From Sphingomonadales bacterium (GTDB taxonomy: Bacteria; Pseudomonadota; Alphaproteobacteria; Sphingomonadales; Sphingomonadaceae): a stretch of DNA of 64,000 bases. This document shows positions 11,101 to 45,800 of the stretch, piece by piece. The first letter of the stretch is position 1, and each line of letters begins with the position of its first letter. A program made the position numbers and the translations under genes. The stretch covers positions 186,001-250,000 of the forward strand of contig JAIXOE010000019.1 in NCBI GenBank assembly GCA_027486895.1, written 5' to 3'. The notes beneath the pieces are model-generated. The model ran no database searches and was not told where the DNA came from. It worked only from the letters and a program-made list of their open reading frames with translations.

Positions 11101-12243
11101 TTATTTCCAGAACTGTGCCGACGCGATTTTCGCGCCTTCGGCCAAAGCCGCCATCTTTGCCCAGACGACGCTGCGGTCAACGCTGCCTGAACCGACGTGG
11201 ATGCTGAAGCCGCAATCTGCGCCAGCCATGACATTGTCGCGGCCAACCAGATGGGCATAGCGGGCAATGCGCTGGGCAATCAGTTCAGGATGCTCAATGT
11301 AATTTGACTGGCATTCGATTACGCCGGGGATCAGTACTTTGCCTTCGGGCAGTTTGATCTCTTCAAACATCGCAAACTCATGCGCGTGGCGCGGGTTCGC
11401 TGCTTCAAACTGGATAGCGTGCGGGCGTGCGCTCCAGACGAGGTCAATGATGTCGCGGAAAGGCACGTCACAATGGTGTGGACCCGGATAATTGCCCCAG
11501 CACATATGCATACGCAGTTGGTCGGCCGGAATGTTCGCTGTCGCGCGGTTCAGCGCTTCGATATTCAGCGCCATCTTGTCGCGGAAGCCACTGAGGTCGA
11601 GTTCGCGGAACTGCGTGTGGCGACCCATGGCCAAATCAGGGCAGTCAATCTGAAGTATGATGCCCTGTGCTGCGATGGCCTCATATTCGTGGCGAAGACC
11701 TTCGGCGAGCGCAAAAACATAGTCTTCATCGCTGTCATAATAATCATTGCGGAAGAACAGGGCAGTCACGCCCGGTGACGCGGCACTCATAAACGCCTGC
11801 TTGCCCGCATGCTTTGCCAGCGATGCATTCAATGCCGTGGCGTCGCGGTCAACGGCGGTCATGTCCTTGACGGTGATTGGCGCGTTGCAGGCAGGGGTTT
11901 TGCGATGCTTGCGGCCCGGGTCGGAAAAAACCCGCTCTTTGGTTGAGGGATAATCTTCAATATCCTGAAACGCGAAGCTGTTGCCCGTGCCGCCAAAGCC
12001 GTTCAACCGGTCCTTGATATAGGTCGCATAGCTTGGCTTTGACTGTTCGCCATCATTGATGATGTCCAGCCCGGCTTCCGCCTGACGGTCAACCACGAAC
12101 TGGACGGCTTCTGCGATGCGGGCGTCAACAGCCGCCAGATCCAAAGGCAAGCCATCTTCTTTTGCGAACATGATTTCGATCAGGTCGTCCTCACGCGGCA
12201 AGCTACCGACATGGGTGGTCAAAAAACGTCCGGCACTGGCCAT
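11101..12243 (-). CDS. MetE-like cobalamin-independent methyltransferase family protein
   Basis: The family is related to the catalytic half of MetE, where a zinc-bound thiol accepts a methyl group. All four MetE zinc ligands have equivalents here: His246 and Cys248 in MHMCWGNYPGPHH, Glu280 in IQFEAANPRH, and Cys344 in MAGADCGFS. At 380 residues there is no N-terminal MetE half, and the folate-binding signature is weak. Such short MetE-like proteins are often found in degradation clusters acting on other thiols or methyl donors, so methionine synthesis is not assumed. It is the last gene of the operon that starts at the TonB receptor at 16493, one base after the hydrolase stop. Confidence 0.75.
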   Translation of the reverse strand: MASAGRFLTTHVGSLPREDDLIEIMFAKEDGLPLDLAAVDARIAEAVQFVVDRQAEAGLDIINDGEQSKPSYATYIKDRLNGFGGTGNSFAFQDIEDYPSTKERVFSDPGRKHRKTPACNAPITVKDMTAVDRDATALNASLAKHAGKQAFMSAASPGVTALFFRNDYYDSDEDYVFALAEGLRHEYEAIAAQGIILQIDCPDLAMGRHTQFRELDLSGFRDKMALNIEALNRATANIPADQLRMHMCWGNYPGPHHCDVPFRDIIDLVWSARPHAIQFEAANPRHAHEFAMFEEIKLPEGKVLIPGVIECQSNYIEHPELIAQRIARYAHLVGRDNVMAGADCGFSIHVGSGSVDRSVVWAKMAALAEGAKIASAQFWK

Positions 12244-12244
12244 T

Positions 12245-13075
12245 TCAAAGTTCCTTCAAATGATGTGTGTTCAAAAAATTCTGGAGCAAACCATTGACGC
12301 TGTCCACGGCGTCGACATTCGCAAGATGCCCCGCATGTGGAATGATTTTGCACTGCCCCTGTGGCGCATGGGCGCCAATAAAATCCGCAACCTGCCGTCT
12401 CCAAATACCGTCTTGCGCACCAGATAGTGCAAGAACGGGTATGGCTAGCGCAGCAATGTCTTGGGCGCAAAAATGCAATGGCGTCTGATCCACATGTTGG
12501 TCGCGGCCGTCATAGGCTTTTAGTATATCATCGACCAAGTCTTGCGCGCCTGATGTGACCCGAGTGAGCGGATGGCGCCGCCAAAGCGCCATCATGTCGT
12601 CAAAACGTCCATTCCGCACGAGCTCTGCATATGCTGCCCGGTCAATCTCTGGCGCATCGCTTGGTTCAGGGACAACGGCATGGAGTGGTGCGCCAATGAG
12701 GCACATAGCGCTTAACCGGTCTGATCCACCGCGCGTATAATCAAGTGCGACCGCTGCACCTTGGGACAGGCCAATCAAAGCAAAGTGTTTTGCGCCAAAA
12801 AAATTGGCTATGCGGTCAATATCGTCGCGCTCGGCCGACAACATCGGTGGGGCAGTTGATGTCCCGAAACCGCGGCGGTCTGGCATCACCAGCCGCACGT
12901 CGGAAAGCGCCAACTGAGGCAACCAAATGCGCCAGTCCAGCGTCCAGCCATGCAGCAAAATGACAAGTGGCCCACTACCGGCTGCGCGGACGTGAAGCTG
13001 CCCGTCCGCTACATCTACCCAGTGCGATTCAGCGATTTCGCCGCCTGACCATCCGTGTTGACGACTGGCCAGCAC
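12245..13075 (-). CDS. Alpha/beta-hydrolase
   Basis: This is a soluble serine hydrolase of 276 residues. Visible are the oxyanion turn LLHGWTLDWRIW, the nucleophile elbow GLSQG with Ser104, an acid near GAQDGIW, and the catalytic histidine in PHAGHLANVD. The substrate could be an ester, lactone or ring-cleavage product. Its place between a VOC protein and a MetE-like protein suggests a step in the same catabolic route, which is inference. It starts seven bases after the VOC gene and ends one base before the next start, so it is co-transcribed. Confidence 0.85.
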   Translation of the reverse strand: MLASRQHGWSGGEIAESHWVDVADGQLHVRAAGSGPLVILLHGWTLDWRIWLPQLALSDVRLVMPDRRGFGTSTAPPMLSAERDDIDRIANFFGAKHFALIGLSQGAAVALDYTRGGSDRLSAMCLIGAPLHAVVPEPSDAPEIDRAAYAELVRNGRFDDMMALWRRHPLTRVTSGAQDLVDDILKAYDGRDQHVDQTPLHFCAQDIAALAIPVLALSGAQDGIWRRQVADFIGAHAPQGQCKIIPHAGHLANVDAVDSVNGLLQNFLNTHHLKEL

Positions 13076-13081
13076 AGGAAA

Positions 13082-13627
13082 TTAGGCGTGCATCGCGCGG
13101 AATGGATTGTTGTTTTCATGGTTACCCGCAAGCCAGCGGCTCAATTCCGAACGCGCCTCTGCACGGCGCTGTTCATCCAGTGGCGCAGCTTCCGGCGCAT
13201 CATAGGTGAACTCAAGCGTCATGTTGTTCGGGTCTTTGACATATACCGAACGGCAATAACCGTGCTCAAGCGTGTAGGTCTGTGGTTCGACAATGCCCGC
13301 AGCCGCGATACGCTGCTCAAGCTCTGCCTGACCATCTTTCTCAACTTGCAAAGCGATGTGAATGAACGGCGACTCCGGCATCTCAGGGCCGAATTCGGCT
13401 TGGTCTTCTGGGTCCGCAAATTGGAAAAAGGCAAGTGCGCTGCCATCTGCCATTTCAAAGAAGCAATGGCAATAGGTCCGCTCTTTACCGAAAAGCTCAT
13501 CTTTCTCGCAATATGTCGCCATCAAGGGGAAACCCAGCACGTCTTCGTAAAAAGCGCGCGTCGCCTCCAGATCCTTCGTTACATAGGCTGTGTGATGCAG
13601 TCTTTTTGCAAGAATTTGCGTGCTCAT
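13082..13627 (-). CDS. VOC-family protein (glyoxalase/dioxygenase fold)
   Basis: Residues 1-145 form a vicinal-oxygen-chelate fold. HHTAYVTKDLEATRAFYEDVLGF gives the first metal-ligand histidine region, PFIHIALQVE the second, and DPNNMTLEFTYD a terminal glutamate. The metal set resembles VOC dioxygenases and lyases. At 181 residues it is shorter than type I extradiol dioxygenases (about 290), and a 35-residue charged tail follows. The exact reaction cannot be read from sequence. It is preceded by wrbA (40 bases) and followed by the hydrolase. Confidence 0.82.
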   Translation of the reverse strand: MSTQILAKRLHHTAYVTKDLEATRAFYEDVLGFPLMATYCEKDELFGKERTYCHCFFEMADGSALAFFQFADPEDQAEFGPEMPESPFIHIALQVEKDGQAELEQRIAAAGIVEPQTYTLEHGYCRSVYVKDPNNMTLEFTYDAPEAAPLDEQRRAEARSELSRWLAGNHENNNPFRAMHA

Positions 13628-13667: not shown

Positions 13668-14270
13668 TTAGGCAATCAGTTTGCCCGCGATCTGTGCGAC
13701 GTGGTTGCCTTGGAAACGGGCACCCGCCAATTCGTTTTCGCTTGGCATCCGGCTGCCATCATTTCCGGCAAGCGTCGTTGCGCCATAAGGCGTGCCGCCG
13801 CTGATCTCGCCCATCTCGCTGTTGCCCTTGAACGTGTAAGGCAAGCCTACAATCACCATGCCATGATGCAGCAAGGTTGTGTGAAACGATGTAATCGTTG
13901 TTTCCTGTCCGCCATGCTGGCTGGCCGTTGAGCAGAATACGCTTCCGACCTTACCCACCAAAGCATTCGCAAACCACAAACCGCCAGTCTGATCGAGGAA
14001 GTTGCGCATTTGCGCCGCCATATTTCCGAAACGTGTGGGTGTTCCGAAAATGATGGCGTCGTAATTGGCAAGTTCATCAGGCGTTGCGATGGGCGCAGCC
14101 TGATCAACCTTAATGTGCGCAGCAGCTGCGACTTCGTCGGGAACGAGTTCAGGAACCCGCTTAACGTCGACCAATGTACCCTCGACCGACCGAGCACCTT
14201 CGGCAACGGCTTCTGCCATGGCCTCAATGTGGCCGTAGCTGGAATAATATAGGACGAGGACTTTGGTCAT
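13668..14270 (-). CDS. wrbA: NAD(P)H:quinone oxidoreductase, WrbA type
   Basis: The FMN-dependent enzyme reduces quinones by two electrons, avoiding semiquinones. The flavodoxin phosphate loop [19 protein letters not shown], the [24 protein letters not shown] block, and [10 protein letters not shown] with [12 protein letters not shown] are WrbA signatures. The 200-residue length is standard. It starts nine bases after the TonB receptor stop, in one operon. A quinone reductase here fits a pathway that produces an aromatic or quinoid intermediate, which is inference. Confidence 0.93.
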
Positions 14271-14279
14271 AAACGCTCC

Positions 14280-16493
14280 TTAGAATTTGTAGCTGGCTTC
14301 CAACCCGTAAATACGCGGACGTGCCTTGAAAACAAAGCCACCTGGCGAGAATTCAGCGTTATATTTTTCGTTGAACAGGTTGCTGGCAAAAGCAGCCATG
14401 GTCCAGCTATCGCTGCTGACACCAAGGCGCGCATCCACCAAATCGACTGGCGCACGAACCGTGGTGTTGAATGGCTCCCACCATGTCTTGCCCGTGCGGC
14501 GATAATCCACGCGGAACAGGCCATCAAGCGTATCGGTCAACTGTGGTGTATATTGTGCGCCAAGGTTGAACGTGTAACGCGAAATCAACGGCGCTTCGTT
14601 GCCAATGGCTGCAGCGTCCGGGAATTCCTTGATTTCACTAAACGTATAACCCGCCGCCGCATTCAATTGAATGTCCGAGGTTGGGCGGAAATTGGCTTCA
14701 ACCTCAAAGCCCTGAATGCGGGTCTTGGGCACGTTGCCTAGATTCTGTGTCGAGTTGGCGGCGAGGAAGACGAAGAAGTAGCTGTTCTTCGACAGTGTCG
14801 AATACGCCGCTGCATTCAGCGTCAGCTTGCGGTCCAGCAAACGGGTTTTGACGCCAACCTCAAACGTTGTCGCGGTTTCGTCCTTAAAGATATCCGAAAC
14901 GCCGACAATGCCGTTGCTGCGGGCAACGCCACCAACACCGGTTTGGTTGAAGCCGCCTGAACGGAACCCACGGCTGTATCCGCCGTACAACGTCACGTCG
15001 TCGGTTGGCTGATAGGTCAACGTGACCTTCGGCTGCAGATCGTCAAAGGTCACACGGCGCTTTTCGCCCGTCACACCCTGCGGGAAGCCAGGAACATTCG
15101 GCAGAAATCCGCGTGGCGTGAGCGTAGTGTTTACGCGCTTGTCACGGTCATAGCGCAGCGACGCGTCGACGCGGAACTGGTCGGAAAATTCGTAGCCCAA
15201 GTTCCCGAACACAGCCCATGCGAAATTATTCTGGCTGTCGGCAAGGAACGTCTGTTGCGGGCTTGCTGGGTTGGTCGAGGGCGAACGGTAAACCGGGAAC
15301 ACACCTTGACCAAAGTCGACGAGATTTCCGGTCGAAATGAAACGCTGTGTATCGATATAATAGCCACCAAACATCCAGAACAACTTGTCGTTCTTTGGCG
15401 ATTCAATCCGGATTTCCTGACTGACGGCTTTGACATTCAGATATTGGCTTTGCGCAATATCGATACCGAAGCCGAGGCCAAATCCGAAAGGTGAATTGGC
15501 TGGACGGAACAGGAAGGATTCGTTGACAGGCCGGAAGTCAAAGGCATCGCCGGTCAGGATTTCCTTGACCGTGTCGTATGAGGTAATCGAGGTTGCTGTA
15601 AAGCCATCGCCCTCATACGCGAACTTCGCCGCAACGTTCAGAATGTCGCGGTTGTTGATGCCGCGGTTGTTGACGCGGATCGGCAGGCTGACATCATTTA
15701 CGTCATTGACGATGTTGAAGTAGAGCGCCTGCGTTTCAAGCTTTGCATAGGATGCACGCAAATCCGCGGTCCAGCCATTGCCTGGTTCGAACAACAAATT
15801 GCCGCGAACCGAAAGGTCCTTAACCGGGTCTGCATCTTCATTCAGGAATGTGTTGCGCAGATAGCCTTCGGTGTCGCGGTACGAACCCGACACACGATAT
15901 TTTACGGTATCGGAAAGCGGTCCGCTAATGCCCGCACGAACGTTCCAGCCAAAGCCGTTGTCGATACCTGCCTTGATGCTGCCGGAGAACTCATCCGTTG
16001 GCTTCTGGCTGGTGATAATGATCGCGCCGCCGATTGCGTTGCGTCCATAAAGACCACCCTGAGGGCCCTTGAGGACTTCGATTTGCGCGATGTCGACCAG
16101 TTCCTGGTTGAACGCAGCAGGGTTAACCTGCTGAACGCCGTCGATGACGACTGCAACCGATGGCTCACTGTTACGCGCTTGCGTGATGCCGCGAATGATG
16201 ATGAAGGCGTTGCCGGAATTCTGTGTTTCCACCAGATTGACGTTCGACGTCAGGTTGATGAAGTCGAGTGGCTTTTCAATGCCTGCATTCTCAATGGTTT
16301 CTGCGCTGAAGGCAGTGACGGCCGCTGGCACGTCTTGCAAATTCTGATCGCGACGAAGTGCGCTTACCACGATTTCCTGTGGCGCGTCTTCAGCAGTCGC
16401 ATCTTGTGCGTATGCGATGCTTGGTACCGTCGCAGCCGACGCCATTAAAGTTACTAAGGCCGCTGAAACCCATTTTGCAGACTGAAATGCCAT
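14280..16493 (-). CDS. TonB-dependent outer-membrane receptor (first gene of catabolic operon)
   Basis: A signal peptide (cleavage after PSIAYA) leads to a TonB-box region, EIVVSALRRDQNLQDVP. The plug domain includes IIRGITQARNSEPSVAVVIDGV and VLKGPQGGLYGRNAIGGAIII. A 22-strand-type barrel then ends in a terminal tyrosine-phenylalanine motif (ASYKF). The QNLQDVPAAVTAF type of N-terminus is common among sphingomonad receptors for aromatic or other carbon sources. It opens the operon receptor-wrbA-VOC-hydrolase-MetE-like. Its 102-base upstream gap carries a paired TTCG-N5-CGAA operator, so it is probably controlled by the adjacent IclR regulator. Confidence 0.92.
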   Translation of the reverse strand: MAFQSAKWVSAALVTLMASAATVPSIAYAQDATAEDAPQEIVVSALRRDQNLQDVPAAVTAFSAETIENAGIEKPLDFINLTSNVNLVETQNSGNAFIIIRGITQARNSEPSVAVVIDGVQQVNPAAFNQELVDIAQIEVLKGPQGGLYGRNAIGGAIIITSQKPTDEFSGSIKAGIDNGFGWNVRAGISGPLSDTVKYRVSGSYRDTEGYLRNTFLNEDADPVKDLSVRGNLLFEPGNGWTADLRASYAKLETQALYFNIVNDVNDVSLPIRVNNRGINNRDILNVAAKFAYEGDGFTATSITSYDTVKEILTGDAFDFRPVNESFLFRPANSPFGFGLGFGIDIAQSQYLNVKAVSQEIRIESPKNDKLFWMFGGYYIDTQRFISTGNLVDFGQGVFPVYRSPSTNPASPQQTFLADSQNNFAWAVFGNLGYEFSDQFRVDASLRYDRDKRVNTTLTPRGFLPNVPGFPQGVTGEKRRVTFDDLQPKVTLTYQPTDDVTLYGGYSRGFRSGGFNQTGVGGVARSNGIVGVSDIFKDETATTFEVGVKTRLLDRKLTLNAAAYSTLSKNSYFFVFLAANSTQNLGNVPKTRIQGFEVEANFRPTSDIQLNAAAGYTFSEIKEFPDAAAIGNEAPLISRYTFNLGAQYTPQLTDTLDGLFRVDYRRTGKTWWEPFNTTVRAPVDLVDARLGVSSDSWTMAAFASNLFNEKYNAEFSPGGFVFKARPRIYGLEASYKF

Positions 16494-16560
16494 TCTTCAT
16501 CCTCCCCGGATCATGTCGAACGCCTTCTATCACCGAAGCGTATCACATAGTTCTAATTCG

Positions 16561-16592
16561 TTCGAAAATCGAAGTCAAGTTCGATATGCGAA
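16561..16592. promoter_or_regulatory. Paired TTCG-N5-CGAA operator upstream of the TonB receptor operon
   Basis: Two 13-base inverted repeats of the form TTCG-N5-CGAA occur at 16561-16573 and 16580-16592, separated by six bases (GTCAAG). An almost identical arrangement (six-base spacer ATCAAC) sits at 18594-18625. Both lie in the control regions around the IclR gene, so they are the likely binding site of that regulator. The site is 68-99 bases upstream of the receptor start on the minus strand and directly beyond the IclR stop. Confidence 0.7.
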
Positions 16593-16595
16593 TAT

Positions 16596-17408
16596 TTATG
16601 CTGCTGAATCAGCTTGTAAAGCGGTAGCCAGCGACGGAAATCTACGAAGCGATGACTCTATCTCCGCCGCGGCTTCACGGAGCAGCGGTAGTCGCGACTT
16701 TATCAGTTCGTCCTGAGAAATGCGGGTGGTTGATGTCGAACAGTTCACAGCGGCAATCGCGCGGCGCGATGAATCAAACACCGGCACCGCTACCGACACG
16801 ATACCGAAATCAAGCTCGTCGAAAGCAGAATCATATCCGCGCTCTCGGATGAGCTGAAGCCGTTCGCGCATGGCGTCAGCTGTCGTCACAGTATGTTCCG
16901 TAAATTTATCAAATGGCGCCGTTGCAAGAAATGCCGAAATCTCGCTGTCCGACAAGAACGCCAATATGGCCTTACCCATTGACGTCGCATGCGCCGGAAA
17001 GCGCGTGCCGACATTTACCCCAAGTCGGATTCGCCGGTTGGTCGATACATGCGCGAGGTAAAGTATGTCTTTGCCTGCGAGCGACACCATGGAGGCACTG
17101 TCGCCCGTATCATCGCGCAGTGACTGCAACGGCGGCACAACCACCTGTTCAAGGTGCATCGATGAATGAAAGGCAGAACCGAACGCCAGAACTTCAGGCT
17201 TCAGGAGAAATCTGCGATCATGCTGGGCCACATAGCCCAACGCGACGAGCGTATTGAGACAGCGCCGCGCGACGGCCGGGCTAAGGCCAGTTACCGCAGC
17301 GACCTCACTTAAACGCATTTCGGGATGTTGGTCGTCAAAGGCCCGTAAAACGGAAAGACCGCGCTCGAGTGTCGAAAGATACTCGGGGTCTTTCTCGATT
17401 TTAGCCAT
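16596..17408 (-). CDS. IclR-family transcriptional regulator (PcaR/PcaU-like)
   Basis: The N-terminal winged helix (STLERGLSVLRAFDDQHPEMRLSEVAAVTGLSPAVARRCLNTL) and the C-terminal IclR effector domain (GKDILYLAHV, ATSMGKAILAFLS, GYDSAFDELDFGIVSVAVPV) are complete over 270 residues. The wording of both halves is closest, from memory, to regulators of protocatechuate-type catabolism. The ATG at 17408 overlaps the preceding TGA (ATGA), so translation is coupled to the CoA-transferase; the TTG at 17411 is not needed. It probably recognises the paired TTCG-N5-CGAA sites on either side of its operon. Confidence 0.9.
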   Translation of the reverse strand: MAKIEKDPEYLSTLERGLSVLRAFDDQHPEMRLSEVAAVTGLSPAVARRCLNTLVALGYVAQHDRRFLLKPEVLAFGSAFHSSMHLEQVVVPPLQSLRDDTGDSASMVSLAGKDILYLAHVSTNRRIRLGVNVGTRFPAHATSMGKAILAFLSDSEISAFLATAPFDKFTEHTVTTADAMRERLQLIRERGYDSAFDELDFGIVSVAVPVFDSSRRAIAAVNCSTSTTRISQDELIKSRLPLLREAAAEIESSLRRFPSLATALQADSAA

Positions 17409-18559
17409 CAATCTGACCTTTCCAATGTCCTTCGTAGCGGCGCGACCAGCTCTTCATCATGCGCACCAAGCACTGGCGGAGCCGTTACTTCAAGAGCACG
17501 TTCGCCGTCGAAAGTCACGGGTGATCTGATCGTTCGGAACACGCCATGCGGGCCGTTGGGGTCTTCGATGCAAAGCTGAAGCGCTTTTGCTTGTTCAGAT
17601 TCAATCGCTTCTTTCGACGTGTTGACGGGGGCATGCGGCACTTCAAGCTGGCGCAGCGTATCGCACCATGTCTTACGGTCGCGTGTTTTGAAAATGGGTG
17701 CCAGAAAGCCGATCACATTTTCATAGTTCGCGATGCGTGCTTCGCGACTTTCAAACATCGGCAACGACAGCATATCGGGTTGCCCAACAGCCGTCGCAAG
17801 GTTTTCCCAGAATTTGGGCGGCGACGACATGTGCAACGCGATCCATGCGCCGTCCGCGCATTCAAACACATAGGACTGCGACACGTTAGGGCGGCTATAC
17901 GGGCCCATAATCTGGTTATCGGAAAAATAATGGGTGAAGTCATCGAGATTGAAATGCACCATCGATTCAAACATCGACGTTTCAACCAAACGACCTTTGC
18001 CTGTCCGTTCACGTTCGTACAACGCCGCTAACACACCATAAGCGGCATAGAAACCAGTCATCGCGTCAGCGAGCGCTGGACCGACGACACGGCGATGCAC
18101 AGGGTTCACGAGCAAACGCAAAAATCCGCTAACCGCTTGCGCGACGGTGTCGAACGCAGGGCGGTCGCGGTCCGGACCTTCGTTGCCGAAACCCGAAATA
18201 GACGCATATACCAGCCGTGGGTTCAATGCCTGCAAACGCGACGGCGAAACGCCAATCTTATCGGCAACGCCGGGACGAAAATTTTGAATGAAGACATCCG
18301 CGTCCGCCAACAACGCATCAAAAACCGCAAGGTCCTGCGGCAGCCGTGTATCCAACGTGATGCTTTTCTTGTTCCGGTTGTAGGTCTGGAAATGCGGGCT
18401 GTATAATGCACCGCGAAAGGCACGGAATGGGTCGCCGACCTTAGGCTGCTCAATCTTGATGACAGTCGCGCCCAAATCAGCCAGCAACATCCCTGCCGCA
18501 GGCCCAGTGATAAATGTCCCCATTTCGAGAACAGTGATATTGTCGAGCGGCTTCGCCAT
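17408..18559 (-). CDS. Class III CoA-transferase (CaiB/BaiF family)
   Basis: This family moves CoA between carboxylic acids without free intermediates. The N-terminal ITVLEMGTFITGPAAGMLLADLGATVIKIE, the NRNKKSITLD segment, and the catalytic aspartate Asp165 in GPALADAMTGFYAAYG are present. The 383-residue length is standard. It is divergent from the citryl-CoA-lyase-like gene across a 79-base gap holding one operator. A natural reading is that it activates an acid which the lyase then cleaves, which is inference. The IclR gene follows with a four-base overlap. Confidence 0.9.
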   Translation of the reverse strand: MAKPLDNITVLEMGTFITGPAAGMLLADLGATVIKIEQPKVGDPFRAFRGALYSPHFQTYNRNKKSITLDTRLPQDLAVFDALLADADVFIQNFRPGVADKIGVSPSRLQALNPRLVYASISGFGNEGPDRDRPAFDTVAQAVSGFLRLLVNPVHRRVVGPALADAMTGFYAAYGVLAALYERERTGKGRLVETSMFESMVHFNLDDFTHYFSDNQIMGPYSRPNVSQSYVFECADGAWIALHMSSPPKFWENLATAVGQPDMLSLPMFESREARIANYENVIGFLAPIFKTRDRKTWCDTLRQLEVPHAPVNTSKEAIESEQAKALQLCIEDPNGPHGVFRTIRSPVTFDGERALEVTAPPVLGAHDEELVAPLRRTLERSD

Positions 18560-18593
18560 TTTGTGTCTCCAGACTTGACTTCATCGTAGAAAC

Positions 18594-18625
18594 TTCGAAT
18601 AACGAAATCAACTTCGAAATTCGAA
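18594..18625. promoter_or_regulatory. Paired TTCG-N5-CGAA operator in the divergent CoA-transferase/lyase promoter
   Basis: Inverted repeats TTCG-N5-CGAA at 18594-18606 and 18613-18625 are separated by six bases. Spacing and flanks match the copy at 16561-16592, with about 27 of 36 bases identical over the extended block. The site ends just before the GGAG ribosome site of the lyase gene and 35 bases upstream of the CoA-transferase start. It could therefore control both divergent genes. Confidence 0.72.
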
Positions 18626-18638
18626 ATATGGAGCAGCT

Positions 18639-19427
18639 ATGCGTATCGGCAAACAGGACGCACCTTTCACCTCTATCTGCACATCCGATGCGCACAGCAT
18701 AAACGTGCGCGGCATGGATTTGTGCGAGGAAGTCATCGGCAAGATCGATTTCACCAGCTACTTCTGGATGCTGGTGACAGGAACGCTTCCCACGCCGACT
18801 CAGCTGTTCTTTTGTAATGCGGTGCTCGCAGCGATTGCCGAGCATGGCCTGGTGCCAAGCGTCGTCGCATCGCGGATGACCTATGCAGCAGCGCCAGAAG
18901 CGTTCCACGGCGCGGTGGCAGCGGGGCTTTTGGGTTGCGGCAGCGTCGTCTTGGGCAGCGCCGAAGTCGCCGGACGTTTTTACGCAGAATGCGTCGAGGC
19001 AACTGAAACACCCGGCGCAAATGCGTCAGACGTCGCCAAAGAAAAAATCATCGCGCTTCGGGCTGACAAAAAACCAATTCCCGGATTTGGCCATCCACAG
19101 CATTCGGACGGCGACCCACGCGCCAACCTTTTGCTTCGGCTTGCCGAGGAACATGGGATTGTCGGCAAGCATATCGGGATGCTCTATGCCATCCGCGATG
19201 TTTTACCCGAGGCGATTGGCCGTCCACTACCCATCAATGTGAATGGCGCGATCCCCGCGGTCATGCTTGACGTAGGCTTTCCATTAGCTGCGCTGAAAGG
19301 CATTTCCCTGCTCGCGCGCACTGCCAGTATTATCGCACATCTGCAGGAAGAAACCGAGCGGCCCATCGGCTTCATCATGTCCGGCGCGGCTGCAAGCCAG
19401 ATTGAATTTACGCCGGCGGCTGAATAG
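18639..19427 (+). CDS. Citrate-synthase-fold enzyme, citryl-CoA-lyase type
   Basis: This 262-residue protein is the short, large-domain form of the citrate synthase fold. The three citrate-synthase active-site residues have counterparts: His90 in PEAFHGAVAAGLLGCG, His152 in PIPGFGHPQHSDGDPRA, and Asp211 in VMLDVGFPLAALKGI. Short forms of this kind usually act as lyases on citryl-CoA-like or related 3-hydroxy-3-methyl acyl-CoA substrates rather than as synthases (established for citryl-CoA lyase). GGAG lies six bases before the ATG. With the divergent CoA-transferase it may form an activate-then-cleave pair. Its last 20 bases overlap the convergent DUF2891 gene. Confidence 0.82.
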   Translation: MRIGKQDAPFTSICTSDAHSINVRGMDLCEEVIGKIDFTSYFWMLVTGTLPTPTQLFFCNAVLAAIAEHGLVPSVVASRMTYAAAPEAFHGAVAAGLLGCGSVVLGSAEVAGRFYAECVEATETPGANASDVAKEKIIALRADKKPIPGFGHPQHSDGDPRANLLLRLAEEHGIVGKHIGMLYAIRDVLPEAIGRPLPINVNGAIPAVMLDVGFPLAALKGISLLARTASIIAHLQEETERPIGFIMSGAAASQIEFTPAAE

Positions 19428-20406
19428 CCAGCAACGCAAATGTGGCGAGCCAGTGTTCGCCCATATAATCACCGGTAACATGCGGCAGGCTGGCATCAAG
19501 ATGTTGAAGCGCTGTCTGTTCGGCCACGGGCGAAACAGGGTGCTGCGGGCCAAGCCGAGCAGCAATCGCGCGCCAGCACCACGCGCGGCTTAAGTTCAAC
19601 CCGTCGAGATGGGCGATCTTCCCATCGCTGCGGTCCGAAACAATGGCAGGCGTAAAAAGGCTTGTCGGAAGGCTAGCCGCTGCTTCGGGCAGGAATTGGT
19701 CAAACCATGTCTGAAACTCGGCTTTTGGTAAGACGCGGCTCATCAACAGCGCTTCAGTCAAAGCAGATGACAGAAACTCGTCTCCGCCCGGCTCCCATGC
19801 TTGGCAATTTCGGTCGTCTGAAAACCAGCCTTTAGCTTTCGCCGCGATAAGGCCAGACAAGACTGGATCGCGATTTTCAGCCCATTCGCCAGCGAGCACC
19901 AGCGCAAACGAAATGTTGAAATGCGTACCCACGCGTAACGGATAAATAAGCTTCGGCAGAAATACATGGAAACGCTCCGCAAAAGCAATCGCAAGTGGTT
20001 CCAGCGCGCTTGCCCACGGGCCATCATGGCGTTCGAGCTCTGCATGCAATGCCAGCAACCAAGCCCATCCATAAGGACGTTCAAAGCCTGCGGACATGGG
20101 TCGGTCAAGAAAGGCGCGCTCCACCGCAACTTTTTCAGGCACCAGCATTTCGTTGGCGCGCGCGTAAATCGCCGCCGTTTCGGACATATCCGGAAACAAG
20201 TGCGCAAGACGCATAACTTGCCACCAGCCATGCACACAGCTGTGCCAGTCAAAGCTTCCGTGGAAGATGGGATGGAACGCTGATGGCACCCGGGCGTCTT
20301 CAGGCCCGTTCAGCACGAGGTCCATTTTATAGGGATATGGTTTTCCCAAATGGCTGAGCGTGGTGCGCGCAAATTGTGAGGCGATTGCGGGTGTTAAATG
20401 AGTCAT
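19408..20406 (-). CDS. DUF2891 family protein
   Basis: The 332-residue soluble-looking protein is rich in aromatic and histidine clusters (HPIFHGSFDWHSCVHGWWQVMRL, ERPYGWAWLLALHAEL, LNLSRAWCWRAIA, GDYMGEHWLATFALLA). This resembles an alpha/alpha-barrel such as those of glycosidase or epimerase folds; I recognise it as DUF2891. The real start is ATG 20406, whose ATGA overlaps the DUF979 stop; the longer ORF start lies inside DUF979. It is the last gene of the 5-oxoprolinase operon, so a role in pyroglutamate or pyroglutamyl-peptide use is inferred. No catalytic motif can be named. Confidence 0.8.
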   Translation of the reverse strand: MTHLTPAIASQFARTTLSHLGKPYPYKMDLVLNGPEDARVPSAFHPIFHGSFDWHSCVHGWWQVMRLAHLFPDMSETAAIYARANEMLVPEKVAVERAFLDRPMSAGFERPYGWAWLLALHAELERHDGPWASALEPLAIAFAERFHVFLPKLIYPLRVGTHFNISFALVLAGEWAENRDPVLSGLIAAKAKGWFSDDRNCQAWEPGGDEFLSSALTEALLMSRVLPKAEFQTWFDQFLPEAAASLPTSLFTPAIVSDRSDGKIAHLDGLNLSRAWCWRAIAARLGPQHPVSPVAEQTALQHLDASLPHVTGDYMGEHWLATFALLAIQPPA

Positions 20407-21344
20407 CGGAACGCCAGAAAGTAAATGAGTGCAATATTGACGATGAGCAGCGGCACAGCCGTTGCGATTTGCGTTTTGACGACAGCGTTTTCGTCTTTTA
20501 GCTCCAGCAAAGCCGCCGGCACCAAGTTGAAATTTGCGGCCATCGGCGTCATCAGCGTCCCGCAAAAGCCGGCAAGCATTCCGATCGCGCAGATAATCGC
20601 GGGGTCGCCATCATATTGCTTGATCAGCAGCGGCATTCCAATTGCCGCGATCATGACCGGAAATGCGGCAAAGGCATTGCCCATGATCATCGTAAACAAC
20701 GCCATCCCCAAACCGAATGCAATGACCGCACCGGCAAGACTGCCTGCAGGGATGGCTTGCTGGATCACCCCGCCCACAACATCGCCCACCCCCGCCAGCG
20801 CGAACACTGCGCCAAGGCTTGCAAGCATTTGCGGAAGGATCGCCGCCCACCCGACGGAATCCATCAAGCGCCGCCCCTGCGACAGCGGCAATGCAGGCGC
20901 AGCACGTAACCAGACATGGCCAACGGCAAGCGCAAGCAAAACGCCCAATGCCAATGAAATCAGCGTCACTTGCTTTACATCGAACAGTGCCGGAAATTGC
21001 TTGAACAGCAATGTGCCAGCAAGTGCAGTGGCGGGAATAATCAGGGCTATGGCGAAAAGGCCATTGCCATATTTTACCGCACGCTGATGTTTGGTCGCAT
21101 CCGGAACTTCGTCAGCCTTGGTCTTGCCGAGCCCGCCAAAGCCAGCAATCGCGACCAAAGCGAGCACGAGCAGCCCATTGCCGAAATCACCTAGCAAATC
21201 GCCTGCCCACATGCTCACGGCCATCAGGCCCCAAAAGGCGGCATTGCCAAAGCGGCGCGGATTGGCCTTGTCGATGAGGTTGAACACAGCGAACGCCGCA
21301 AATGCAAAGCCCGCAAGCGCATAGACCCAAGCCAGCGTAATCAT
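20403..21344 (-). CDS. DUF979 membrane protein, probable 5-oxoproline transporter subunit
   Basis: The 313-residue protein has about nine hydrophobic helices (for example MITLAWVYALAGFAFAAFAV, GNGLLVLALVAIAGF) and the conserved block MIMGNAFAAFPVMIAAIGMPLLI, followed by GFCGTLMTPMAANFN. DUF969/DUF979 pairs are annotated as 5-oxoproline transporter subunits in current family databases (recalled). The gene overlaps both neighbours by four bases (ATGA), showing tight coupling DUF969-DUF979-DUF2891. The immediate upstream 5-oxoprolinase gene supports the substrate. Confidence 0.85.
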   Translation of the reverse strand: MITLAWVYALAGFAFAAFAVFNLIDKANPRRFGNAAFWGLMAVSMWAGDLLGDFGNGLLVLALVAIAGFGGLGKTKADEVPDATKHQRAVKYGNGLFAIALIIPATALAGTLLFKQFPALFDVKQVTLISLALGVLLALAVGHVWLRAAPALPLSQGRRLMDSVGWAAILPQMLASLGAVFALAGVGDVVGGVIQQAIPAGSLAGAVIAFGLGMALFTMIMGNAFAAFPVMIAAIGMPLLIKQYDGDPAIICAIGMLAGFCGTLMTPMAANFNLVPAALLELKDENAVVKTQIATAVPLLIVNIALIYFLAFR

Positions 21345-22033
21345 GCTGCTTCATCCGTTGCAGTAGCCGACGCTGCTTGACTATTTAGTCGGCGGTCGAG
21401 CAGCCACAGCCGGAACCCGTGAATAAGGAAAGCCGCGATCGCGGTCGGGATCGCCCAGACTGACAGCTCGAACGGTTCCAATATGATGCCATATTGTTCG
21501 AGCAATCCCTTCATGAGCAATATCGAACCGATCGCGAGGAAAATGTCCTCACCGAAAAACAGGCCGATATTATCCGTGGCGGCGGAGAAGGCTTTTACTT
21601 CCTCACGTTGGTTGTCATTTAACGCGCCTGCCTGTTTCTCGGCAGCCGCCTCTGCCATTGGCGCAACCAGCGGGCGCACCGTTTGGGGGTGACCTGCGAC
21701 GGACGTTAATCCCAAAGCCGCAGTTGCTTGACGTATCAAAAGATAGCCTGCCAATAGCCGCCCCGTCGTAGCACCTTTCAGACCGGAGATTAGCCCCCGC
21801 GCGCGTTCCTGAAGACCAAATGCCTCAAGCATTCCGATGACGGGCAACACAATCCAAACGATGGAGACATAACGCGCGTCATTAAACGCTTTGCCAAAGG
21901 CCGAGATGATTGCGTGGACATCTAAGTCGGCCGCTATGCCGGTAACCGCAGCCGAAGCGATAATGACCAGCAACGGGTTGAACCGAAGCATGAAGCCAAT
22001 GACGATGACGGCTATCCCCAGCAAAACCCACAT
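21341..22033 (-). CDS. DUF969 membrane protein, probable 5-oxoproline transporter subunit
   Basis: The 230-residue protein carries several helices (MWVLLGIAVIVIGFMLRFNPL, VSIVWIVLPVIGML) and the family motif LTSVAGHPQTVRPLVAPMAEAAAE, plus NIGLFFGEDIFLAIGSILLM. It is the usual partner of DUF979. The gene starts 20 bases after the 5-oxoprolinase stop and overlaps DUF979 by four bases. Together they probably form the uptake system for pyroglutamate in this operon. Confidence 0.85.
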   Translation of the reverse strand: MWVLLGIAVIVIGFMLRFNPLLVIIASAAVTGIAADLDVHAIISAFGKAFNDARYVSIVWIVLPVIGMLEAFGLQERARGLISGLKGATTGRLLAGYLLIRQATAALGLTSVAGHPQTVRPLVAPMAEAAAEKQAGALNDNQREEVKAFSAATDNIGLFFGEDIFLAIGSILLMKGLLEQYGIILEPFELSVWAIPTAIAAFLIHGFRLWLLDRRLNSQAASATATDEAA

Positions 22034-22053
22034 CAGCTTACGTCCCCTTGTGC

Positions 22054-25000
22054 CTAAGCCTTGCCATATCCGCCGCCACCCGGTGTTTCGATTTCGAAAA
22101 CATCCCCGACGTCCATTTCAACCGTAGCGGTTGCACCGAAAATTTCCACACTGCCATCGGCGCGCCTGACTCGATTGATACCGCGCATCCCATGTTCGCC
22201 GCCGGCCAAGGCAAAGGGCGGGACTTTGCGTCTGTTCGATAATATGCCAGCCGTCATCGGCTCTAGAAAACGCAACCGTCGCACCGCGCCCTGGCCACCA
22301 TTGTGGACGCCTCGGCCACCGGACCCTGAACGCACGGAGAATTCCTCAAGCAGGACCGGGAAACGGGTTTCCAATATTTCGGGATCTGTCAGTCGGCTAT
22401 TGGTCATATGCGTCTGCACGACGGAAGCACCATCAAAGTTCGGTCCAGCACCAGAGCCGCCGGCTATCGTTTCATAATATTGATAAATGTCGTTGCCGAA
22501 GGTGAAGTTGTTCATGGTCCCCTGCGCGCCCGCCATTACGCCGAGGGCACCGAACACTGCGTCGGTGATTACCTGGCTAGTCTCGACATTCCCTGCAACC
22601 ACCGCAGCTGGATAACGCGGATGCACGAGCGTTCCTTCTGGCGCAACTATGGTAATCGGCTTGAGGCAGCCCTCGTTCATCGGGATGTTGTCATCAATTA
22701 ATGTGCGGACCACATACAGCACCGCCGCGCGCACCACCGAAACAGGGGCGTTGAAATTGTCGGGCAATTGCGCTGACGTTCCGGTGAAATCAATTGTCGC
22801 GGTTCGTGCCGCGTGGTCCACGGATACGCGCACTTCAACCACGGCATCATTGTCCATCGCATAGCGGAAATGACCATCGGAAAGGCGCAAGATCAACCGC
22901 CGAACCGCTTCTTCGGCATGGTCCTGCACATGATGCATATAGGCGGTAACGACATTAGCGCCATAATCATTGCTGATGCGCACAAGTTCTGATGCGCCTT
23001 TTGCGCAAGCGGCAATTTGCGCTTTTAAATCGGCGACATTTTGTTCGATGTTACGCGAGGGCCATTTTCCGGATGCCAGCAGGTTGCGGACCTCAAGATC
23101 CCGAAAATGCCCGTTTTCGACAATCAGCATGTTATCGATCAAGACCCCTTCTTCTTCCACCGAGCGGCTTCCGGGCGGCATCGACCCGGGGGTAATCCCG
23201 CCAATATCCGCATGGTGCCCACGTGCGGCAACGAAATAGGCTGGAGCTACATCATCGTTCGCGACAAAGACCGGCATAATGACCGTAATGTCGGGCAAAT
23301 GCGTTCCGCCGTCATAAGGCGCGTTCAATGCATAAACATCACCCGCACAGATACCACGGCCATCGGCTTGATCCGCACGCCGCGACAATATGGCCCGAAC
23401 GCTCTCCCCCATTGATCCCAAGTGCACGGGCATATGCGGCGCATTGGCGACCAGATTTCCACTGGCATCAAAAAGCGCGCACGAGAAATCCAGCCGCTCG
23501 CGGATGTTCACTGACGATGCGCTGTGTTGAAGTGCAGCGCCCATTTCCTCGGCGATAGCCATGAACAGGCCGCCCATGATCTCAAGGCGGACGGGGTCGA
23601 CTTCCGTTCCGGCTTCGCCGCCCGTCGTGCGCGGCGTGGATCGCGACAACATCAAATTGCCGATGCCATCCGCCGCGAACTTCCAGCCCGGCTCGACAAT
23701 CGTAGTCGAAACCGGATCAATGATGATGGCTGGCCCATGCGCTGAAAATCCAGCCACTAGGGCGCTTCGATCATATAATGGTGCCGCATGTTGCGCGCCG
23801 TCCATGAAGCAGGCGACATTTTTGATGGGCCGATTGGAACCGGCGGATGGTGCAAAGTGGATATCGGCATCAAAGACACTCGAATGAATGGCCTCCACCC
23901 GAACCATTTCGACCACCAAAGCCTTGTCGCTGACAAAACCAAATTGGCTGCTGTGCCGTGCCGCGAAAGCCAACTGCATCGTGGTCACATCGCTATAGGG
24001 TATCTCGATACTGCTATCGGTCCCGACATAGCGGATGTGCACTGTTGGCTCGCTGCGGACATCGCCCTCGACGCCTTGGCGGCGCAATTCTGCTGTCGCT
24101 TCGGCACAAAGGTTGTCGACGATAGCGTCCAGCGTTATTTGCTCCAGTGCGCCGCCAAATGTGCGCTCGCGTATCGCCCGCCGATCCGCCAGTCCCATAC
24201 CATAAGCCGACAGCACCCCCGCCATCGGATGGATCATCACGCTGTCCATGCCAAGCGCATCAGCGACCCGACAGGCATGCTGCCCACCTGCGCCACCAAA
24301 GCAGGCCAAAGTATAGCGCGTGACATCATGCCCGCGTTCGATCGAGATTTTCTTGATCGCGTTGGCCATGTTGGCAACCGCAATCGCAACGAAGCCTTCG
24401 GCAATTTCTTCAGCGCACATTTGCTTTCCGGTTGCGGATTTAACTTCCAAAACAAGCGCTTCAAATTTATCCCGCACCACATTAGCATCGAGCGGCGCGT
24501 CGCCATTGGGCCCAAATATGTTCGGGAAATGCTCAGGAACAATCTTGCCCAGCATGACGTTGCAATCTGTCACCGTCAGTGGCCCACCACGGCGGTAACA
24601 TGCAGGACCAGGCACGGCGCCTGCCGAATGCGGTCCAACCTGAAACCGCGCGCCATCAAAAGTGCAGATCGAACCACCACCCGCGGCGACGGTATGGATA
24701 CGCATCATCGGCGCTCTTATCCGAACGCCTGCCACCATTGTCTCGCTTTCGCGTTCATAATGCCCGGCATAATGTGAGACATCTGTGGATGTACCACCCA
24801 TGTCAAAGCCGATGATATCGGTAATGCCCGCCTGTTCTGCCGTTTTGGCCATGCCGACAATGCCGCCTGCAGGACCGGACAATATCGCATCTTTACCACG
24901 GAAGCTATCGCTGCTGGTCAAGCCGCCATTTGATTGCATGAACAATGCGGAGATGTTGCCATCTGCGTCGGCCTTCAGTTGCTCGACATATTGACGCAAC

Positions 25001-25644
25001 ACAGGCGACAGATAGGCATCCACCAATGTCGTATCGCCACGCCCGACCAGCTTGATCAGCGGCGCGACAATATGGCTGACGGAAATTTGGGGAAAGCCGA
25101 TGTCAGCGGCGATGTCCGCCAGTCGCTGTTCATGCTGGTTATAAAGATATCCATGCATCAAAACGATAGCGAGCGCGCGATATCCGGCATCATAAGCGGC
25201 CTGCAGCCCAGTGCGCGCTGCATCTTCGTCCAGGGGGGTCAGCACATCGCCCTTGGCATTCACCCGCTCTTCAATTTCGACAACTGTGCCATGCAGAGGT
25301 TCGGGCAGTTCAATATGTCGCACGAACAATTTGGGCCGCTCTTGATAACCGATGCGCAGCGCGTCGCCAAAACCCCGCGTAATGGCAAGGCAGGTTGGCT
25401 CACCTTTATGCTCAAGCAACGCGTTGGTTGCGACCGTCGTGCCGATCCGCATCTCAACTGGCGGCAGTGGGCCATCGGATATGCCGGTAATCATCCGGAC
25501 TGCAGCGATAGCGGCGTCGCGATACTGCTCTGGGTTTTCCGACAGAAGCTTGACGGTTTCAATTGCACCATCGGGCGAACGGCCAACTACATCGGTAAAC
25601 GTCCCGCCACGATCAACCCAGAATTGCCATTTGCTTGAACCCAT
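22054..25644 (-). CDS. 5-oxoprolinase, fused hydantoinase A/B type (ATP-dependent)
   Basis: The enzyme hydrolyses 5-oxoproline to glutamate using ATP. The 1196-residue chain fuses a HyuA-type half (about 1-680: [76 protein letters not shown]) with a HyuB-type half (about 690-1190: [73 protein letters not shown], ending [10 protein letters not shown]). This is the same layout as eukaryotic OPLAH. It heads the operon with DUF969, DUF979 and DUF2891. The Shine-Dalgarno before the ATG is weak. The fused form and the neighbours favour 5-oxoprolinase over hydantoinase or acetone carboxylase. Confidence 0.9.
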
Positions 25645-42800: not shown

Positions 42801-45800
42801 GCGCCGGGATGGACGACATCCTGAAGCACATTACCTACGGCGCTGGGGTCGGACCCGCTGACGCCATCGAGAACCCAATTGGTGTCTGCGCGCGCAACGG
42901 GAAAATCGTTCGCTCCGGTAATCGAAATAGTGATCGTGGCCGTCGCGGTGTCGCCATCGGCGTCAATCACGGTGTAAGTGAACGTATCAGTAAGCGTTGC
43001 ATTTGCGCTTAGTGCAATGACTGCAGGATCAAGAATATCGAGATTATATGTATATGTCCCGTTTGCCGATAGTGTCAGCGCGCCATAATCTCCAGCGAGT
43101 GCGGTCCCTAGCGTGCCAGCAGTCGCTGCGAACGCGACCGCTGAAACAAGCAGTTTCCCATCGGCACCAGCGTTGTCAGCCGAACCATCGGTGCTGTTGT
43201 TATCAACGCCACCAAGCGCGGTCAGGACGTTGCCATCGGCAAATATCTGTCCGTCACGCGCAACGCTGTCCGCATCGTTTATTGCGAAGGGTGCATCGTC
43301 TTTGATCGCGAAATGGCCGGTGATATCTGCAGTCGATTGCGCGGTGTCGCCGTCGCCATCGGTGACGATTGCAGTCAGTGTAATAAGATTGGCACCGCTC
43401 AGAAATCTGGTCTGGTCGGGTCCGCTGTCGGGGCTATGAATAATAGCGCGCGATTGATCGAAGGTAACAATGCCATTCCCAGCCACCGAAATGCGGAATA
43501 CTTCATGCGCCGCAGTCCGGCCATAGATGACACCGCTCACGATCGACAAAATGACCGCTTCGCCTGTGAGCGAATCGATCAAGCCGCTCGGGCCTGCCAA
43601 CACGCCCAATTGATATACGACGCTGCCAGCGCCATCAGCACCAAAATCCAGCGTCGATGCGAACAGTCCAGACAGATTGGCCACAGCATCAACCGAAAGA
43701 TAGCTTTCATCCAGGAGAAGCACAGGTGCGTCGCCGCTTGCCGAAACCGTCGGGCCATCATCGGCAAAGCGGATGTTGCCGCCCAGATCGACCGCAACCA
43801 TATCCGTTGCGCTATCGCCATCGCGATCAACGACTGTCGCGGTGCCGCGCAGCTCAATCAAATTTGCGGGCAATTCCAATAGCTGGCTCACATAATTGCT
43901 GGCAGAACCTGGCAACGGATGGTCGACCTCGGAAAACTGTTTAAGTGTAATAACGCCAGTCGCGGGGTTGACTGAGACTGCGAAAACGGGTGACCCGCCA
44001 GCGCTGCCGACGATCTCGCCAGCGACGAGCGCAAGGGTAATTGCCACTCCATTGCTGGTCAGTCCCGTTGAACCCGCACCTGATCCGAGCGCCAGAGCAT
44101 AGGCCCAGCTCGCGGCAGCACCATTCGATCCATCTGCTCCATAATTGGCGCTTGCGATGGAAAATTCCGATGAAAGATTGGCTGTTGCAGTGTCGAAAGC
44201 AGCGCCTCTTGTATCCCCATCCTGCGTCGTGAGGACGATACTGTTGGTATCTGCCGCTACCACATCAAGCGATGGTCCGTCGTCCTTGAAAACAAGCGCA
44301 CTTCCGATGTTGACCGACGCGGTTGCCCGATCGCCATCGGAATCGGTCACAGTCGCGACCAATTGAATAAGCTGCGAGGGGATGGTTGCCGGGTCGTCGG
44401 GATTGGATGAGTCTGAATGACGGATCGCGCGAACCTGATCCAGCGTCGCCAAGCCATCGGGTGCAACCGTTAACCGGAACGCTACAATCCCAGACGCGCC
44501 GGAGACCCGACCTTCCAACACATTACCCAGAACATGCAAGCTGATCGGCGAACCCGTCGCGACATCGACCAGACCCGAGCCGTTGTTGACCTGAAAAGTA
44601 TAGGAGACAATGCCCGGCTGATCAGCCCCCATAACGACGTTAAACAATGCTGCGAAGTTCGCTGTCGCGTTCGCCGCAAGATTGCTTTCATCGACTGTCA
44701 GCAGACCAGTTGCGGGTGCAATCGCGACAATCGACGGAGCGTCGTCGGATACTGAAACATCCACTGTCCCCGCAACCTGATCGCCATCGCTGTCGGTTGC
44801 GACGACATTTACCGCGCCAAGCGCGGCAATATCATCGGCATCGGTATTGGGGTGAAACGCATAGTTGGATTCAAGTGTTGCAACCACCGTTGCAGTCGTG
44901 CCTACGATTGTCAGGTCGAGAATGACGACCGGCTTATCAACATCCCAGCCAATGATTTGCGTATCCGATTCCCGCGTCCAGTTTAGCCCGCCGCCCAATC
45001 CCGAAGTGTCGCCAAAGATTATTGACGCAATCGGATCTGAACCCGGCGTAAATACAATCTGGGCCTGCACCGTCACAGGTTGATCCATTGACGGAGTCGA
45101 CCCGGTCTCGAGATATTGGTCGTCCAGAATCAGCGTGGCAGGCGCACTAGCCTTTGGATTGGCGCCATCGACAATACGGATTTGTTGTTGTGCGGTTGAC
45201 GTATCGCCGTCCCCGTCGGTGATCGTATAGGCAAAGTCTGCGATCAGTGGAGCAACGCTCGACGCCGATACAGGGTCGAACGTCCACGCACCGCCCGCCT
45301 GGAATGTATATGTCCCATGCACATTGCTATAGGTCGTCATGCCGGTCTGCAGCACTGCAACAGTCACGCCGCCGATGCTGACTGACGTTACCGCAGCGCC
45401 GTCCGCGCCTTGAGTGTCGTTGCCAAGCAGGTTGCCGGAAATAGCAGGCGCATCTTCGGCAACCGAAATTGCCGGTGCCGCGCGCGCAACGGGCACATCG
45501 TCGGTGACATCGATTGTGATAGTGTTCTGCGAGGTGTTTCCGAACGCGTCGGTCACTAGGTAGGTGAAGGTTTCGACCAACGGTACCGTGTTGGTGCCGT
45601 TATTGGCGGTGTTGCCCTTCACCGGGCTGGTGAGGGTGTAGGTGTAAGAGCCGTCGGCGTTGAGCTCGAACGTGCCGTGGGCACCAACCCCGGTACCTAC
45701 CAGCGTAAAGGCTAGCGAACCGGTGCCGCCTGCGACATTGTCGTTCAGGTCGCCCGAGACGCTTTCGTCTTCACTGTCAGCGTTGCTACCGGTCACAAGC

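Follow-up and report, generated by a model that had tools for sequence, protein, structure and literature searches.

Tandem palindromes as predicted operators of an IclR-type regulator at an uncharacterised sphingomonad gene cluster

Introduction

The window analysed here, 64,000 nucleotides from a Sphingomonadales bacterium, contains two similar pairs of palindromes flanking a short unit that encodes a CoA-transferase and an IclR-type regulator. This raises the question of whether the palindromes are operators of that regulator and, if so, which genes it would control and in which direction. The motif, its co-occurrence with the regulator gene, its conservation and its position relative to −35- and −10-like elements were computed and are described below. 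The reading we favour, with a probability of about 0.78, is that both pairs are predicted operators of the neighbouring IclR-type protein and define a local regulon; the figure covers operators, regulator and regulon together, whatever the sign of regulation. Through its putative binding, an IclR-type switch would then very probably govern an uncharacterised breakdown pathway in sphingomonads, and eight uncharacterised neighbouring genes can be treated as a single predicted regulatory unit whose operator is exact and searchable.

Results

Two exact tandem motifs in the window

The pattern TTCG-N5-CGAA-N6-TTCG-N5-CGAA has exactly two matches in the window, O1 (16561..16592, minus strand) and O2 (18594..18625, minus strand), at precisely the coordinates where the original prediction had seen four TTCG-N5-CGAA repeats arranged as two pairs with a six-base spacer. 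In O1 the centres of the two palindromes lie 19 bp apart. O1 stands 68 bp ahead of the open reading frame of a TonB-dependent receptor (14280..16493, minus strand), the first gene behind it; O2 is common to two divergent units, lying 35 bp from the gene for a class III CoA-transferase (CaiB/BaiF; 17408..18559, minus strand), the first gene of the CaiB-IclR unit, and 14 bp from the gene for a citryl-CoA-lyase-like protein of the citrate synthase C-terminal domain family (CCL; 18639..19427, plus strand). These gene positions agree with the predicted placement of one pair upstream of a TonB-wrbA-VOC-hydrolase-MetE-like operon and the other between the divergent CoA-transferase-IclR and lyase genes, and the predicted sharing of about 27 of 36 bases could be reproduced (26/32 bases identical between O1 and O2, 27/36 with the flank included).

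Each TTCG-N5-CGAA box is a perfect short palindrome, and single boxes are not above chance in the window: five are found in the 64 kb (the four boxes of O1 and O2 and an unrelated one at 45455) against a shuffle mean of 2.57, with at least five in 14 of 100 window shuffles. Both facts would suit a chance or structural origin, as RNA hairpins or a repeat family. The operator claim therefore rests on the exact pair, for which a first-order Markov estimate from the window composition gives 8e-5 expected occurrences per 64 kb, or 0.004 over 2.87 Mb. Only the exact form of the double motif carries weight, as with up to three mismatches at least two matches appeared in 18 of 100 window shuffles. The same holds for the whole assembly to which the window belongs (G000, 2.87 Mb, 64 contigs), where O1 and O2 are the only exact double motifs. 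The next-best sites are one with two mismatches and sixteen with three, and since a reversed-pattern control yields more matches at up to three mismatches (37 versus 19), we regard those sites as noise. A sequence-only profile built from 47 distinct operators, O1 and O2 among them, matched G000 at E≤1 only at O1 and O2 when both strands were scanned (150 of 2035 first-look candidates were scored). No Rfam family scored above threshold, the best match being snoZ159 (E 0.22, 23.9 bits versus a gathering score of 39). Finally, the motif is found with the regulator gene in 16 genera while its inner bases vary; this conservation pattern already disfavours a chance or structural reading, which we consider hardly credible.

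The motif co-occurs with the IclR gene

The scan of the genome and of related sphingomonads that the original prediction had called for showed that the motif is not frequent genome-wide: both exact sites of G000 lie at the cluster, and 37 of 397 family genomes carry the exact double motif. The same 397 genomes were searched for the protein, and an IclR orthologue (E≤1e-60) was present in 35, from 16 of the 96 genera of the family. The exact motif was found in 35/35 genomes with the orthologue versus 2/362 without it (Fisher p = 3.6e-48, a value that ignores the shared ancestry of the genomes). The six-base gap is clearly preferred: it accounts for 70 of the 96 sites obtained when the gap may range from 0 to 20, which leaves 26 for the 20 remaining spacings, and the reversed pattern occurred at spacing 6 in one of the 397 genomes and at 13 sites over all 21 spacings. 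G126 and G295 share one motif site with zero cluster genes within 3 kb; this exact double motif (L105, L106) carries AGGAGG in its spacer and is possibly a chance match.

A class-level survey detected the motif in 3 of 289 genomes (G000, G569 and G403) and the reversed pattern in one; in G403, cluster genes are absent from the 2.7-kb locus of the match. Outside the family the cluster arrangement recurs in G569 and on plasmid NZ_CP025613.1 of Niveispirillum cyanobacteriorum (Azospirillaceae), with identical site sequences in the two. The plasmid carries the genes for CCL, CaiB, IclR, TonB receptor, WrbA, VOC protein and hydrolase with their order kept, and no MetE match was found within its 24.8-kb stretch. 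The Niveispirillum receptor promoter (L111 12877-12927) has three tandem palindromes, each 19 bp apart, of which the first, ahead of O1, has one mismatch. Because only 2 of 11 genomes drawn from its own genus have the cluster, it is accessory, and this figure, the 16 of 96 family genera and the Niveispirillum plasmid suggest that it has probably been transferred.

Co-occurrence alone cannot separate the IclR gene from equally conserved neighbours. The motif is as closely tied to the remaining cluster genes as to the IclR gene, which would also be expected if the palindromes bound the product of another regulator gene, located elsewhere, and the IclR gene only travelled with the cluster. However, the motif has the shape of the IclR group 1 consensus, the ten window proteins scanned between 9050 and 20565 include no second regulator, and the IclR gene is at the cluster in 38/38 genomes while so few genomes lacking it carry the motif (the 2/362 above). 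A regulator encoded elsewhere is thus improbable in our view, and we continue with the IclR-type protein as the predicted binder.

Operators are retained ahead of the same genes

We then asked how consistently operators accompany the individual cluster genes, using 39 loci in 38 genomes, of which 35 belong to the family, two are named MAGs and one is a plasmid. A gene was counted when its own strand carried an upstream operator (at most two mismatches) and no cluster gene of opposite orientation intervened, a generous test in which only cluster genes act as blockers and the distance limit is 9 kb. Homologues below 50% identity (hydrolase below 33%) had been dropped, which removed second MetE-like paralogues and distant TonB receptors, and L035-L037 were left out of these and of the promoter-layout counts, L037 being apparently the same as G192 and L035 and L036 near copies. 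An operator was found upstream in 38/38 cases each for CCL, CaiB, IclR and VOC, in 34/34 for the TonB receptor, 36/36 for the hydrolase, 31/32 for WrbA and 28/35 for MetE. In G195 it lies more than 2 kb from CaiB, within the 9-kb limit. Where the arrangement has changed, operators are found with the moved genes: in G083 and G067 the VOC-hydrolase unit adjoins the lyase gene and MetE stands alone, and each moved unit has its own operator, exact at VOC and with one and two mismatches at MetE. The seven MetE genes of 35 without an operator are genuine misses. A search for a hidden operator ahead of these and of WrbA in G242 returned single boxes only (at most two mismatches). Apart from G113 and G242, their number was close to or under the background of 1.9 per 400 bp.

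Taken with the co-occurrence, this retention of operators at the same target genes supports the predicted IclR regulon, with putative binding. Of the seven enzymes and a receptor originally placed under one regulator, the receptor stands and, beside the regulator itself, the enzymes number six: CaiB, the lyase, WrbA, the VOC protein, the alpha/beta hydrolase and the MetE-like protein. A local regulon of one receptor, six enzymes and the regulator is thus a well-supported prediction.

The regulator and its nearest relatives

Translation of the regulator gene (16596..17411, minus strand) probably begins at the ATG at 17408, which overlaps the stop codon of CaiB. Its product scores above the Pfam cut-offs for HTH_IclR and IclR_C (PF09339, 58.9 bits, cut-off 22; PF01614, 137.3 bits, cut-off 24), which by sequence assigns it to the IclR family. 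The best curated model, TIGR02431 (PcaR/PcaU/PobR), gives 251 bits, below its cut-off of 284.75; the regulator may work like PcaR, PcaU or PobR, yet with the subfamily threshold missed it is not filed as a TIGR02431 member. One of the orthologues (G260:C1:1334280-1335065) has one in-frame TAG.

Solved relatives of the protein include Pseudomonas putida PcaR (8eju), whose structure contains succinate contacted by Y151, T177, S240, N257 and S259 (PMC12455658). Read from the alignment, these residues correspond to Y118, T143, S206, N223 and S225 of the window protein; the five counterparts are invariant in 38/38 orthologues, as is RRCL of the recognition helix, and are present in two Cupriavidus homologues. 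The conserved contacts hint at a small carboxylate as the ligand without proving it. At the Cupriavidus IclR homologues (48-50% identity, CaiB- and lyase-like neighbours) an operator was sought as well; there was no double motif with at most two mismatches, and every single box in these stretches (at most one mismatch) is over 1 kb distant from the regulator gene.

Motif and spacing both resemble described IclR sites. TTCG-N5-CGAA matches the inner part of the IclR group 1 motif GTNCG-N5-6-CGNAC, the outer G/C being unconserved here, and the 19 bp between centres fall within the 18-22 bp of tandem IclR palindromes that have been read as tetramer sites (PMC8222616). Across groups 1 and 2, that study counts 94 orthologous groups with tandem-palindrome regulons. 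Its main text does not use citrate, CoA-transferase, COG1804 or TonB, so the present regulon is undescribed there under those words, and none of the titles or abstract starts listed for open-licence papers names the cluster. The regulon therefore appears, as a well-supported prediction from sequence, to join a known kind of control system, with motif and spacing nearest to the PcaR/PcaU/PobR branch.

PcaR of P. putida and PcaU and PobR of Acinetobacter are likewise IclR-type regulators. Their half-sites are close to TTCG/CGNA, as in the PcaR box GTTCGATAATCGCAC (PMC12455658, PMC8222616), and PcaR shares a similar recognition helix and the five succinate-contact residues with the window protein. 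The sites of PcaU and PobR, in contrast, combine a palindrome with one external direct half-site (PMC8222616), where we see two full tandem palindromes with a −35 element between them; the curated-model score, below its cut-off, also sets the window regulator apart from this branch, and no pca or pob genes were found beside it. The PobR of PMC12285266, annotated there as AraC-type, was set aside as a comparison. PheR of Sphingobium sp. SHPJ-2 is, like the protein proposed here, a sphingomonad IclR-type repressor of a catabolic operon; its footprint overlaps the transcription start and its deletion also raises TonB receptor genes, but its operator core is GCAACG, its genes are different, and the available text reports no tandem TTCG-N5-CGAA (PMC13273656). 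TtgV (PDB 2XRO), an IclR-family protein solved on DNA, offers a mechanical model (PMC8222616), although it is distant in sequence (match E 1e-14) and regulates efflux transporters.

Predicted promoters lie across the operators

The spacer of each operator contains most of a −35-like hexamer pointing at the target gene. For the receptor operon the predicted −35 is TTGACT (16573..16578, minus strand), read from the O1 spacer CTTGAC plus the next T, with a predicted −10, TAGAAC (16550..16555, minus strand), 17 bp away. For CaiB-IclR the predicted −35 is TTGATT (18606..18611, minus strand), inside O2 with its spacer GTTGAT, and the predicted −10, again at 17 bp, is TACGAT (18583..18588, minus strand). 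The window thus holds the promoter-like elements TTGACT-N17-TAGAAC and TTGATT-N17-TACGAT.

The layout is conserved. Read toward the target, operator positions 15-20 comprise five spacer bases and the first T of the second palindrome; in receptor-facing exact operators they read TTGACT in 33/34 and TTGAGT in 1/34, and exactly 17 bp further on TA is found in 21/34 (A alone in 31/34). CaiB-facing exact operators (n = 36) have TTGATT in 21, TTGTTT in 7, TTGCCT in 6 and TTGAAT and ATATTT in one each, that is TTG in 35/36, followed at 17 bp by TA in 33/36. The spacer is asymmetric and oriented according to the target gene, which speaks for a −35 element and against protein contact alone. The spacer lacks a TTG-type −35 in the operators of G195 and G242 and in those ahead of VOC in G067, G083 and G270, and the −10 elements, that of the receptor operon included, are poor consensus matches beyond TA. 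A lyase promoter with its −10 inside O2 is tentative: a possible −35, TTGACT (18575..18580, plus strand), would pair as TTGAC-N17-AATAAC with a −10 in the first O2 palindrome, and TTGAC stands at this exact offset in only 9/36 loci.

We infer binding, a tetramer, repression and the ligand class as follows. Two dimers of the IclR-type protein (a tetramer) would sit on the adjacent palindromes of each operator; as the centres are 19 bp apart, about two helical turns, both dimers would lie on one face of the DNA. With the −35 hexamer in the six-base spacer and the second palindrome filling the −35/−10 interval, bound protein would cover the promoters of the receptor operon and of CaiB-IclR, and it would also cover the start region of the lyase gene. 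All three units, the regulator's own gene included, would be repressed until a pathway intermediate, probably a small carboxylate, binds. Guo and Houghton are said to have found in 1999 that PcaR binds over both −35 and −10, which we liken to the promoter overlap here. The placement of the −35, flanked by the two palindromes and directed at the target gene, makes for a sharp, testable prediction of transcription control.

Given the regulon, the sign could be the opposite, with the IclR-type protein acting mainly as an activator that recruits RNA polymerase when ligand-bound. Its nearest curated model and solved relative point to a branch in which PobR, PcaU and, in some settings, PcaR are activators, the weak −10 elements would also fit an activator-dependent promoter, and the VOC operators of G083 and G067 stand directly upstream of a better −35 candidate, a position suiting activation. 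PcaR itself activates or represses according to operator position, and represses when its box overlaps the −10 or lies downstream (PMC12455658). O1 and O2, however, cover the −35 and the −35/−10 interval, and at the lyase gene the operator occupies the region from 14 to 45 bp upstream of the start codon, which has to contain a promoter or leader. Repression relieved by ligand is therefore the most likely sign, about twice as likely as activation; by analogy with PcaR, promoter-dependent activation is possible.

Cluster genes and a possible pathway

The linkage of a TonB receptor to specific enzymes should aid the search for the substrate. Behind the receptor, the O1 operon continues on the minus strand with a WrbA-type NAD(P)H:quinone oxidoreductase (13668..14270; TIGR01755, 334.2 bits, cut-off 132.5), a VOC-family protein (13082..13627), an alpha/beta hydrolase (12245..13075) and, as its last gene, a MetE-like protein with the catalytic domain only (11101..12243). 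The structural model of the VOC protein (pLDDT 81.7) best matches 9u42, an Acinetobacter entry with the title homogentisate 1,2-dioxygenase (28% identity; query-based TM 0.68). Glyoxalases and fosfomycin-resistance proteins, which share this fold, account for many of the remaining matches. Candidate metal-binding residues including H11, H12, H90 and E139 are invariant in 12/12. The modelled fold points towards ring cleavage, and control of aromatic-acid or beta-ketoadipate genes, the role of the PcaR/PcaU/PobR subfamily, is possible for the window regulator. In the MetE-like protein, HxC is followed by an E and then by DCG, which we take to resemble the zinc ligands of MetE.

No pathway was identified from the enzyme set of the cluster. 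The predicted activities of the VOC protein, the MetE-like protein and WrbA suggest hydroquinone-type ring cleavage ending in the split of a CoA ester. A fuller, doubtful version would have a dedicated IclR switch, with its −35 caged between two dimers, on an undescribed route: WrbA would keep a TonB-imported (hydro)quinone-type compound reduced, a VOC-type dioxygenase would cleave its ring, the hydrolase would open it, CaiB would load it with CoA and the citryl-CoA-lyase-like protein would split it, the MetE-like protein serving a methyl or thiol step.

Several further observations concern the same genes. The hydrolase (12245-13075) has 81-82% identity to its counterparts in L035, L036 and L037, where the other seven genes have 95-100%; judged by sequence identity it diverges far faster than its operon mates, and L093, which appears to be the L037 genome again, shows the same hydrolase divergence. 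A second, distant MetE-like gene (24-27% identity) lies in or beside the cluster in L071, L073, L074, L075, L076, L082, L084, L088, L092, L094, L099 and L103, and L088 has an additional one at 37% identity. Finally, the window holds, at 19408-25644, genes for DUF2891, DUF979 and DUF969 proteins beside that for a fused 1196-aa hydantoinase A-B/oxoprolinase protein, possibly a unit for pyroglutamate uptake and use.
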